Shown one piece after another: positions 45,536 through 48,601 of a stretch of DNA of 64,000 nt. Every line of letters starts with the position of its first letter. The stretch's first letter is position 1. The notes beneath the pieces are model-generated. The model made no database searches and had not been told where the DNA came from. It saw only the letters and a list, made by a program, of their open reading frames with translations. The translations under genes and the position numbers were made by a program. This DNA is from Fusobacterium ulcerans ATCC 49185 (GTDB lineage: Bacteria; Fusobacteriota; Fusobacteriia; Fusobacteriales; Fusobacteriaceae): the NCBI RefSeq assembly GCF_900683735.1, contig NZ_LR215979.1, positions 2,542,001-2,606,000 of the forward strand, given 5' to 3'.

Positions 45536-45564
45536 TTGACAATTATATTTACATATGATATACC
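45536..45564 (+). promoter_or_regulatory. Promoter of the leader-ORF / M20 unit
   Basis: TTGACA (45536-45541) and TATACC (45559-45564) are 17 bp apart. Transcription would start near 45571, about 31 nt before the leader ORF. Confidence 0.7.
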
Positions 45565-45601
45565 TAAAACAATAAGAAATTAAAAAAGGGGGAAGTTCAG
45601 A

Positions 45602-45679
45602 ATGTTATTTAACAAACTAAGGATAAGGAACAGGAAAAACAATAAAAATATTGAATACCTTATCTCTTTTGTCTGCTAA
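45602..45679 (+). CDS. Small ORF, candidate leader peptide (25 residues)
   Basis: The ATG at 45602 has GGGGG nine bases upstream and opens a 25-codon frame ending in TAA. The peptide is basic in its first half, with three alternate Arg codons, all AGG (residues 7, 9 and 11), then Asn/Lys-rich, then ISFVC. It has its own promoter and is followed by a terminator hairpin and then by an M20 amidohydrolase gene. A leader peptide that controls read-through is the leading idea. A stand-alone small protein is the alternative. I know no named homologue. Confidence 0.5.
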   Translation: MLFNKLRIRNRKNNKNIEYLISFVC

Positions 45680-45798
45680 ACGACATTATGGCTTTTTGAT
45701 GAATAAATTTTAGATCATATCTTAATTATTTTTGAAGATTTGGGCTTATATTTTTTATATAACCCATGATCATATTTTTAAATCAATGTCAGTGTAGC
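45675..45798 (+). promoter_or_regulatory. Candidate antiterminator pairing that overlaps the leader stop codon
   Basis: GCTAAACGACATTAT (45675-45689) can pair with ATCAATGTCAGTGTAGC (45782-45798) in blocks of 4, 2, 6 and 2 base pairs, with one mismatch and two single-base bulges. The second strand is most of the left arm of the terminator, so the two structures exclude each other. A GGG-TTATA/TATAA-CCC hairpin (45741-45765) lies in the loop. Formation in the cell is inferred. Confidence 0.45.
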
Positions 45799-45822
45799 AC
45801 TCGAATGTTATACTGACTTTTT
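45788..45822 (+). terminator. Terminator between the leader ORF and the M20 gene
   Basis: GTCAGTGTAGCAC pairs with the downstream GTTATACTGAC arm (two G-T pairs), and TTTTT follows. It may end the pst operon, act as an attenuator for the downstream genes, or both. The rest of the roughly 340-bp gene-free stretch after phoU is covered by the preceding entries. Confidence 0.8.
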
Positions 45823-45868
45823 ATTTTACAAAAAATTATATAAATATAAAATATCAATGGAGGGAAAA

Positions 45869-47047
45869 ATGGAAAACATGACAGTAAAACTTTCAGAACT
45901 TTTTTCAAAATATGCAGAGGAATTTAAAGAATTAAATGAGTATCTATACAACAATCCTGAGTTAGGATTACAGGAATTCAAAGCTTGTGCAGCTCATACT
46001 GAAATGTTAAAAAAACATGGTTTTACAGTTGAAACAAACTTTGCAGGACTTCCTACTTCTTTTATTGGAAAGTACAGTACTGGAAAACCTGGTCCTAAAG
46101 TAGCTATTCTTGCTGAATATGATGCTCTTCCTGGAATAGGACATGGATGTGGACATAATATATTTGGTGTTACAAGCGTAGCAGCTGGTATTCTTACTAA
46201 AGAAATCATGGGAGATGTTGCTGGGGAAATAATGGTAATTGGTACTCCTGCTGAGGAAACAAATGGAGCTAAAGTTCATATGGCTTCTTTAGGAGTTTTT
46301 GATGATATTGATGTGGCTATGGCTGCTCATCCTACTGGTGAAGCTCATCACAGAAGCGGTACTTCTCAAGCTATGGAAGCTATCCAGTTTACATTCAAAG
46401 GTAAAACTGCTCATGCTGCGGGAGCTCCTCATGAAGGTATAAATGCTCTTGATGGTGTATTAATACTTTTCAATTCTATCAATGCTCTTAGACAGCAGAC
46501 TTTAGAAACTGCCAGAATACATGGAATCATCTCTAATGGAGGAAAAGCAGCTAATATAATACCTGACTTAGCAGTAGCCAACTTCTATGTAAGAGCTAAA
46601 ACATTAGATTATTTAAAAGGGCTTGTAGAAAGAGTTAAAAATTGTGCTAAGGGAGCTGCTCTTGCCAGTGGAACTACTTTAGAAATAACAAACTATGAAA
46701 CTAGCTTTGCTGATCTTGTTACTAATGAAAAACTTTCAGCAGCTTATGAAAAAAATCTAAAATCTTTAGGTGTTACTGATATCAGAAGCAAAGAATCAGG
46801 AGGTTCTACAGATATGGGAGATGTAAGCCACTGCTGTCCAGCTATACATCCATATTTCCCACTTACAACAGCACATCTAACAGGTCACAGTGTAGAATTT
46901 GCAAGTGCATCTATAGCTCCTGAAGCTTATAAGGGAATGAAAGAATCTGCTGTATCAATGGCTCTTACAGCTATGGACATTTTCACTAATGCTGAATTAT
47001 TAAAAGAAATAAAAGATGAATTTAACAAAAATGTTAAAAAAATGTAG
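45869..47047 (+). CDS. M20 family metallo-amidohydrolase/peptidase
   Basis: The protein of about 392 residues has the M20 metal motifs: ILAEYDALPGIGHGCGHN near 80-98, TPAEETNGAK near 127-136, and HPTGEAHH near 152-159. A dimerisation domain starts at about 170 with GKTAHAAGAPHEGINALDG. The last metal His is in LTGHSVEFA. It resembles AbgB/amidohydrolase enzymes that split N-acyl amino acids or dipeptide-like amides. The ATG at 45869 is chosen since GGAGGG lies five bases upstream, inside the longer form. No signal peptide is present, so it is cytoplasmic. Two periplasmic amino-acid-type binding proteins follow, suggesting that uptake and cleavage of an acylated or conjugated amino acid are linked. 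Confidence 0.9.
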   Translation: MENMTVKLSELFSKYAEEFKELNEYLYNNPELGLQEFKACAAHTEMLKKHGFTVETNFAGLPTSFIGKYSTGKPGPKVAILAEYDALPGIGHGCGHNIFGVTSVAAGILTKEIMGDVAGEIMVIGTPAEETNGAKVHMASLGVFDDIDVAMAAHPTGEAHHRSGTSQAMEAIQFTFKGKTAHAAGAPHEGINALDGVLILFNSINALRQQTLETARIHGIISNGGKAANIIPDLAVANFYVRAKTLDYLKGLVERVKNCAKGAALASGTTLEITNYETSFADLVTNEKLSAAYEKNLKSLGVTDIRSKESGGSTDMGDVSHCCPAIHPYFPLTTAHLTGHSVEFASASIAPEAYKGMKESAVSMALTAMDIFTNAELLKEIKDEFNKNVKKM

Positions 47048-47087: not shown

Positions 47088-47837
47088 ATGAAAAAACTTA
47101 TTATATTATTTATGATGATTATATCAACACTTTCTTTTGCAGGTAAAAAACTTTATGTTGGAACTAATGCTGAATTTAAGCCTTATGAATATCTTGAAGG
47201 AGATAAAATAACTGGATTTGATATTGATTTTATGGATGCCATTGGAAAAGAGATTGGATATGAAGTTCATTGGGTAAACATGGGCTTTGACGGACTGCTT
47301 CCTGCCCTTCAAATGAAAAAAGTAGATGCTGTTATCGCTGGGATGTCTCAAACTCCTGAAAGACAAAAAGCTGTTGATTTCTCAATGCCATATATGTTCA
47401 CAAAATCTGAGCATTATGTTATAGTTAATGAAAACAGTACTATTGTAAAAAAAGAGGAGCTAAAAGATAAAAAAGTCGGAGTTCAGATTGGAACTATTCA
47501 GGAAGAATTTACTATTGCATTAGGTGGAATACCTCAAATATATAATGCATGGACTGGAGCTTTGATGGATCTTCAACAAGATAAAATCTCTGCTGTTATC
47601 ATTGCAGATGTATCTGGAAATGCTTATCTTGAAAATATGAAAGGTCTAAAAAAAGTTGACATTGTTGTAGACAGTCAGCCTGGTGCTTCTATAGCATTTA
47701 GAAAAGGAGAAACTGACCTTGTAAAAGCTGTAAATGAAGCTATTTTAAAGTTAAGAGATGATGGGACTTATCTTCAATTATTGGAAAAATACTTTCCTGA
47801 AAGAGCTGAAGAATTTAAAGAAGCATTTAAAAAATAG
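47088..47837 (+). CDS. Amino-acid-type ABC transporter substrate-binding protein 1
   Basis: The 249-residue protein has a signal peptide (MKKLIILFMMIISTLSFA) without a lipobox and a family-3 solute-binding domain with LYVGTNAEFKPYEYLEGD, ITGFDIDFMDAIG and DAVIAGMSQTPERQKAVDFS. The ligand is probably an amino acid or derivative. ATG 47088 follows GGGAGG; TTG 47073 is an unlikely alternative. It is 40 bp after the M20 gene and 11 bp before a close paralogue. No permease or ATPase gene is nearby, so partners must lie elsewhere. Confidence 0.92.
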   Translation: MKKLIILFMMIISTLSFAGKKLYVGTNAEFKPYEYLEGDKITGFDIDFMDAIGKEIGYEVHWVNMGFDGLLPALQMKKVDAVIAGMSQTPERQKAVDFSMPYMFTKSEHYVIVNENSTIVKKEELKDKKVGVQIGTIQEEFTIALGGIPQIYNAWTGALMDLQQDKISAVIIADVSGNAYLENMKGLKKVDIVVDSQPGASIAFRKGETDLVKAVNEAILKLRDDGTYLQLLEKYFPERAEEFKEAFKK

Positions 47838-47848
47838 GGGGATAATAA

Positions 47849-48601
47849 ATGAAAAAACTTGTACTTATATTTACACTACTTTTATCAACACTTTCTTTTG
47901 CAGCTAAAAAACTTTATGTTGGAACTAACGCTGAGTTCAAACCTTATGAATATCTTGAAGATGGTAAAATGGTTGGATTTGATATTGGGGTAATGGATGA
48001 ACTTGGAAAAAAATTAGGTTATGAAATAGAATGGGTAAATATGTCTTTTGATGGACTGCTTCCTGCTCTTCAAATGAAAAAAATAGATGCTGTTATTGCT
48101 GGGATGTCTCAGACTCCTGAAAGACAAAAAGCTGTGTCTTTCTCTATACCATATATTTTCTTTACTTCTGAACACTATGTTATAGTTAATGAAAACAGTA
48201 CTTTTAAAACAAAAGAAGATTTACAAGGAAAGACTGCTGGAGTTCAAATGGGAAGTATGCAGGAGCAATTTGCTATAAATAATGGAAGTGTTCCTAAACT
48301 ATATAATACTTTCACTAATGCTTTAATGGATCTTCAAAATGGAAAGGTTGACTGTGTAATTATTGCAGACAATTCTGGAAAAGAATATCTTAACACTATG
48401 GATAGAATTAAAAAAATAGATTCTATTATTGATCCTAAGCCAGGTGCTTCTATCGCTTTTAGAAAATCTGATAAAGAACTTGCAGAAAAATTTAGTGATG
48501 CTATAGTTGAATTAAAGACTACTAAGGAGTATTCTGATCTTGTAGAAAAATATTTTCCTGAAAGATTTGAAGATTTTAAAGCGCAAAATTTGACAAAATA
48601 G
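47849..48601 (+). CDS. Amino-acid-type ABC transporter substrate-binding protein 2 (tandem copy)
   Basis: The 250-residue protein is a near copy of the one before it, sharing LSFA.KKLYVGTNAEFKPY, WVNM.FDGLLPALQMKK and AGMSQTPERQKAV. The middle and C-terminal parts differ more, for example YIFFTSEHYVIV and NTMDRIKKIDSIID. DNA identity is also high around the signal peptide, pointing to a recent tandem duplication or gene conversion. The changed ligand-side residues could give a different specificity for the same transporter. It is probably the last gene of the M20 operon; a bidirectional terminator follows at 48651. Confidence 0.92.
   Translation: MKKLVLIFTLLLSTLSFAAKKLYVGTNAEFKPYEYLEDGKMVGFDIGVMDELGKKLGYEIEWVNMSFDGLLPALQMKKIDAVIAGMSQTPERQKAVSFSIPYIFFTSEHYVIVNENSTFKTKEDLQGKTAGVQMGSMQEQFAINNGSVPKLYNTFTNALMDLQNGKVDCVIIADNSGKEYLNTMDRIKKIDSIIDPKPGASIAFRKSDKELAEKFSDAIVELKTTKEYSDLVEKYFPERFEDFKAQNLTK

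Follow-up and report, generated by a model that had tools for sequence, protein, structure and literature searches.

An arginine-codon leader before an M20 dipeptidase operon in Fusobacterium ulcerans: a probable attenuator and its relatives at other arginine genes of Fusobacteria

What controls the M20/binding-protein operon that follows phoU in Fusobacterium ulcerans, and does the sequence in front of it belong to this operon or to pst? In the window, which here means the whole 64-kb stretch of DNA analysed, the first structural gene of the operon (45869–47047, plus strand) encodes an M20 amidohydrolase/dipeptidase that scores over the TIGR01891 cut-off, with ATG at 45869 as its most likely start codon. 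HmrA and Xaa-Arg dipeptidase are its best solved homologues, and the related PDB entries are 3ram (2.3e-79) and 8xzc (1.5e-63). Two Lys/Arg/Orn-like amino-acid solute-binding proteins follow on the same strand (47088–47837 and 47849–48601), both with PF00497 and with TIGR01096, below cut-off, as the best NCBIfam match. The enzyme and the two binding proteins fit arginine salvage, with a substrate specificity that is predicted from homology. We consider it very likely that the region upstream acts as a trp/his-type transcription attenuator that is ribosome-mediated and arginine-specific, and that it is one member of a regulon.

The original prediction had described a promoter, a ribosome site, a 25-codon ORF with AGG at codons 7, 9 and 11, and a terminator before the M20 gene, and a re-reading of the sequence found each of them where it had been placed, all on the plus strand. 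The promoter TTGACA-N17-TATACC (45536–45564) consists of the -35 element TTGACA (45536–45541), the N17 spacer and TATACC (45559–45564). The ribosome-binding site GGGGGAAG (45588–45595), likewise read directly from the sequence and matched by an SD-like site in orthologous leaders, precedes the leader peptide ORF MLFNKLRIRNRKNNKNIEYLISFVC* of 25 codons (45602–45679), in which the putative regulatory codons AGG-ATA-AGG-AAC-AGG occupy 45620–45634. A short, putatively translated ORF with its own ribosome site is thus situated between the promoter and the first gene. The intrinsic terminator (45788–45822) comprises GTCAGTGTAGCACTCGAATGTTATACTGAC (45788–45817) and a U-tract to 45822.

The terminator left arm (segment 3, 45785–45799) can also pair with the region of the leader stop codon (segment 2, about 45674–45687), as had been proposed earlier. 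This duplex exists, with a calculated energy of -12.3 kcal/mol; taken in the window alone, it is no stronger than chance, as shuffled arms do as well in 15–19% of cases (p 0.15–0.19). Since this single-sequence evidence is weak, the question was settled by comparison. The window further contains the full set of 1:2, 2:3 and 3:4 helices, which was absent from the original prediction, because segment 1, the ORF start, pairs with segment 2 too. The resulting long hairpin (45590–45697; minimum free energy, shuffle z-scores and pair counts) encloses the ORF, with an inner helix between AAGGATAAGG (45619–45628) and CCTTATC (45658–45664). Since the ORF start and the terminator left arm are similar in sequence, they compete for the stop-codon region, and the three helices are predicted to be mutually exclusive.

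From this arrangement we infer leader translation, stalling, termination and a response to arginine in the following way. Transcription would start at about 45571, and a ribosome would then begin the leader peptide. With plentiful charged tRNA-Arg for AGG, it would reach the stop codon and cover segment 2 (about 45673–45688), so that the terminator would form and the M20/binding-protein operon would be off. When charged tRNA-Arg is scarce, the ribosome would stall at AGG codons 7–11 and mask segment 1, so that segment 2 could pair with segment 3 and the polymerase would read through. If the leader is not translated, the 1:2 hairpin would form and the terminator would stay on. The net logic would be antitermination at low arginine and termination at high arginine. 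Assuming that a ribosome covers about 15 nt 3' of its A site, one waiting at codons 7–11 is reckoned to cover the RNA to about 45635–45647, and one at the stop codon to about 45692.

The original prediction had named conservation in relatives as a check. Of the 96 genomes searched in the order, 45 gave M20 matches, and the sequences preceding the 30 best matches were compared. In 19 of these 30 (the window and 18 others), from several genera of Fusobacteriaceae, M20 is preceded by a short ORF that has an SD-like site and AGG codons in frame, and all 19 leaders carry a T-tailed hairpin, an intrinsic terminator, immediately 5' of the M20 gene, constant in position and widely different in sequence. 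By DNA search, close copies of the leader were found in three genomes of the same genus and diverged copies in others. The automatic ORF scan returned no leader at seven M20 orthologs from other genera, and no M20 relatives were found in viral contigs.

Because the leader of the window lies directly after phoU, a pst-operon terminator accompanied by a chance ORF had earlier been offered as the simple alternative. The TTGACA and a TATA-like -10 are kept upstream of M20 orthologs both with and without phoU upstream, and phoU is not upstream of the leader and M20 at eight loci, one of them in F. gastrosuis. Even next to an unrelated upstream gene, M20 keeps its leader, promoter and terminator, which assigns the element to M20 rather than to pst. 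This alternative, which also leaves aside the leaders found at other arginine genes (see below), is contradicted by the comparison with relatives, and we rejected it as having a negligible chance of being correct.

Comparison also bears on the helices of the attenuator. In nearly all 19 M20 leaders, the ORF start region pairs with the stop-codon region, including an inner helix such as AAGGATAAGG:CCTTATC. The z-scores of this leader hairpin against dinucleotide shuffles mostly lie between -2 and -6.7 across the 19 orthologs; the exception is L045, which has an ORF of only 13 codons and an insignificant z of -0.5. Standard pairs fill 88% of the cells in alignment A5 compared with about 50% for slid partners, and double-change cells number 12 compared with 4.4 in shuffles. 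RNAalifold reported no structure on a single 16-sequence alignment that mixed three leader subtypes, a null result that was overcome by aligning each leader subtype separately. For the 2:3 pairing, partners were swapped between species. In 14 M20 leaders, the own pairs averaged -9.5 kcal/mol, compared with -7.4 kcal/mol for permuted pairs (s.d. 0.5, p<5e-5), and for 36 leaders drawn from all gene classes the observed mean was not matched in any of 50000 permutations. By class, the test gave p=0.0002 for M20, p=0.003 for permease and p=0.004 for argC leaders; the four binding-protein leaders alone gave p=0.37, which is not significant. In one M20 leader (L052), the 2:3 pairing persists despite extra sequence between leader and terminator. 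On the other side, base changes within the ORF give only a faint sign of coding (excess at third positions, p=0.025; 160 non-synonymous compared with 40 synonymous codon changes), where the RNA helices likewise constrain the sequence. Combined, relatives keep the promoter, the ORF with its AGG codons, the leader hairpin, the antiterminator and the position of the terminator, with compensatory changes, and the comparison strongly supports the attenuator reading.

To look beyond M20, a covariance model built from seven M20 leaders (R1) was run over the 96 genomes. Outside M20, it matched leaders in three further settings: before an operon for an amino-acid ABC permease, before a gene for a Lys/Arg/Orn-type binding protein and before argC. 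A second model (R2), for which only permease and argC leaders were used, recovered the M20 leader of the window at E 1e-4 together with M20 leaders of relatives; since it was trained without M20 sequences, this cross-check is independent of the M20 leaders. The regions upstream of argC (TIGR01850) contain the AGG leader, with the core AGG-ATA-AGG, and terminators. The leader stands before most argC genes of a second large, Leptotrichiaceae-type family (f4) and before several of the window's own family. An intrinsic terminator precedes the first structural gene in 32 of the 34 other leaders examined. One R1 match (G002:441472) was rejected.

Four such leaders are known in the genome of the window, its own and three more. 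The first (G000:C1:2160845) precedes an Arg/Lys-type binding-protein gene and then argG, the second (G000:C1:1317313) precedes the permease, ATPase and binding-protein genes of an amino-acid ABC operon, and the third (G000:C1:706391, minus strand; L258) precedes an NhaC-like transporter gene and then argH. Both argG and argH of this genome score over the NCBIfam cut-offs. Searching this genome with a DNA pattern for the AGGATAAGG core gave no leader besides that of the window, whereas the covariance models did find others; two weak R2 matches inside genes (188565 and 1994158) were rejected. The comparison shows an AGG-containing ORF, a 1:2 hairpin, a 2:3 pairing, a terminator and the occurrence of this type of leader at several arginine genes, and it supports a regulon that extends over the order.

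Several side observations were made on these leaders. In L258, the leader MLLRHERHGISNL has histidine codons beside the AGG codons, and its counterpart in L252 reads MLLRRESQGISNL. At L345 (G015:C7), an AGG leader is followed by permease, ATPase and argH-like genes that seem to form a single operon. Two terminators in tandem are frequent ahead of the first gene in permease and argC leaders, as at six of the loci. The M20 leader L052 and the permease leader L351, both of genome G019, contain repeat-like copies with GACGGCCGTATGAGTTCTACGAGCTCAATG-like sequence between leader and gene; the copies are in opposite orientation and possibly represent a small mobile repeat.

The original prediction had suggested arginine as the signal, and this is borne out by argG, argH, argC and Arg/Lys-type transport genes bearing the same leader. 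Codon usage agrees with the amino acid of the operon: arginine makes up 11.9% of leader codons compared with 3.4% in the ORFs of the window. AGG accounts for 77% of the Arg codons in 53 leaders compared with about 10% in ORFs, an enrichment that the helix itself demands in part and to which related species do not contribute as independent samples. Among the tRNA genes read in the genome, those for tRNA-Arg comprise one CCU, two UCU, one ACG and one UCG. Work on the his leader indicates slow translation of AGG, and in the Salmonella his leader assay no other single sense codon had as strong an effect (PMC4046918), which would also suit a general sensor of slow translation, responding to antibiotics or to any shortage. 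The genes served are arginine-specific (argC, argG, argH) or of Arg/Lys-type transport, and we regard such a general sensor as very improbable.

Known arginine and tRNA-dependent regulators were also considered. TIGR01529, the ArgR model, was over its cut-off in none of the 96 genomes compared with 7 of 14 controls, and an ArgR regulon was rejected on this ground; the genes are probably on only when arginine is low, with the leader in place of ArgR. No Rfam family reached its gathering threshold in the window. Among 12 related leader loci, Rfam gave two weak unrelated matches only, and no T-box was among the matches with E<=0.5; a T-box riboswitch was therefore rejected as well.

Many of the leaders possess a further hairpin between ORF and terminator, which the original prediction did not contain. 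Its class consensus is GAAAAGAUU-stem-AUGAGYAUA, where the two loop strands, GAAAAGAUU and AUGAGYAUA, form an invariant, purine-rich 9x9 internal loop. The window carries a variant of the class, GAAGAUU-stem-AUGAUCAUA (45734–45774, plus strand), identified by pattern search, context and covariation, and in L041 GAG:CUC replaces the GGG:CCC of its stem. A pattern that was derived from some of these same leaders gave 22 matches in the 96 genomes compared with two for the reversed control, and 18 of the 22 sit behind AGG leaders of this kind. Three matches in coding regions and one without a leader were dropped. Five of the six stem pairs covary, and 98% of cells are paired. In the genomes searched, the members, namely the window and 16 further loci, stand mainly behind AGG leaders. 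The hairpin is not in Rfam.

This hairpin may act by holding segments 2 and 3 close to each other or by binding a partner. That the 9x9-loop hairpin is itself a sensor or docking site, for arginine, tRNA, a protein or RNA polymerase, is doubtful; if so, these leaders would join two devices, an attenuator that reads codons and a further regulatory RNA domain that is so far undescribed. Another reading would let a trans-acting factor or small molecule control the terminator through the hairpin and would give the ORF a minor role. The invariant loop strands, the strongly covarying stem and the recurrence of the hairpin at several arginine operons would agree with this reading. However, the f4 argC leaders keep the AGG ORF and terminators without the hairpin pattern, and the choice of AGG codons and the 2:3 coevolution would be left unexplained, which makes control by such a factor decidedly improbable.

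The leader peptide could alternatively be a nascent-chain sensor, in which free arginine, ornithine or a dipeptide would arrest the ribosome and induce the operon, modelled on ornithine with speF leaders and tryptophan with TnaC. The peptides form a family with one invariant Arg, a conserved core (L[RK][IL]R, RRQ) and mostly in-frame length changes, and the M20 enzyme and the binding proteins could be catabolic. Nevertheless, the AGG codons lie at codons 4–11, where the nascent chain is still short for an effect in the exit tunnel, and both the downstream residues and the ORF length vary. Moreover, the leader also fronts the biosynthetic genes argC, argG and argH, which are expected to rise on shortage and not on excess. 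Peptide sensing is accordingly an unlikely explanation, and we retain attenuation by codon reading.

The proposed attenuator shares with the trp and his attenuators a short leader ORF with codons for the controlled amino acid, three alternating helices and a terminator before the first gene. In contrast to these, the Fusobacteria leader would be arginine-specific, its segment 1 includes the leader start region, so that the entire ORF lies within the 1:2 hairpin, and many members have the extra conserved hairpin between segments 2 and 3. In the Salmonella orf34-speF leader (PMC6386406), Arg codons (AGG, CGG) of the leader ORF likewise sense arginine and a ribosome at the stop codon alters downstream folding; that system differs in using Rho, ribosome-site masking and RNase G without an intrinsic terminator, and in serving polyamine synthesis. 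By the definition of that class (PMC6386406), the window's leader falls outside it, since an intrinsic terminator is present and the downstream gene is not an ornithine decarboxylase. No sequence relation between the two leaders was seen. In S. aureus rbfL (PMC13009471), rare AGG/AGA codons in a leader peptide also sense arginine shortage, but the uORF has 8 residues and pausing blocks the ribosome site of the next gene, acting on translation and lowering expression. ArgR/AhrC regulons similarly control arginine biosynthesis and uptake genes as one regulon, with a DNA-binding protein as the regulator. T-box riboswitches also sense tRNA charging and control a terminator, whereas the sensor in the Fusobacteria leader would be a translated ORF.

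In a 2010 survey, leader-peptide attenuators had been known only from Proteobacteria and Actinobacteria, and the survey added Firmicutes (PMC2965389). We found no earlier report of an arginine attenuator in Fusobacteria among the open-access papers searched. The present reading would extend leader-peptide attenuation to Fusobacteria and to an arginine regulon, and the choice of AGG codons would become a test of the tRNA-charging theory of Elf and colleagues (PMC1183508). It would also bring to light a conserved RNA hairpin that Rfam does not contain. Amino acids and peptides sustain Fusobacteria in the mouth and gut, so the supply of arginine likely matters to their physiology. How an ArgR-less bacterial order could control arginine synthesis and uptake would have a possible answer in a single kind of arginine-codon leader that stands before argC, argG, argH, transporter genes and a dipeptidase gene.
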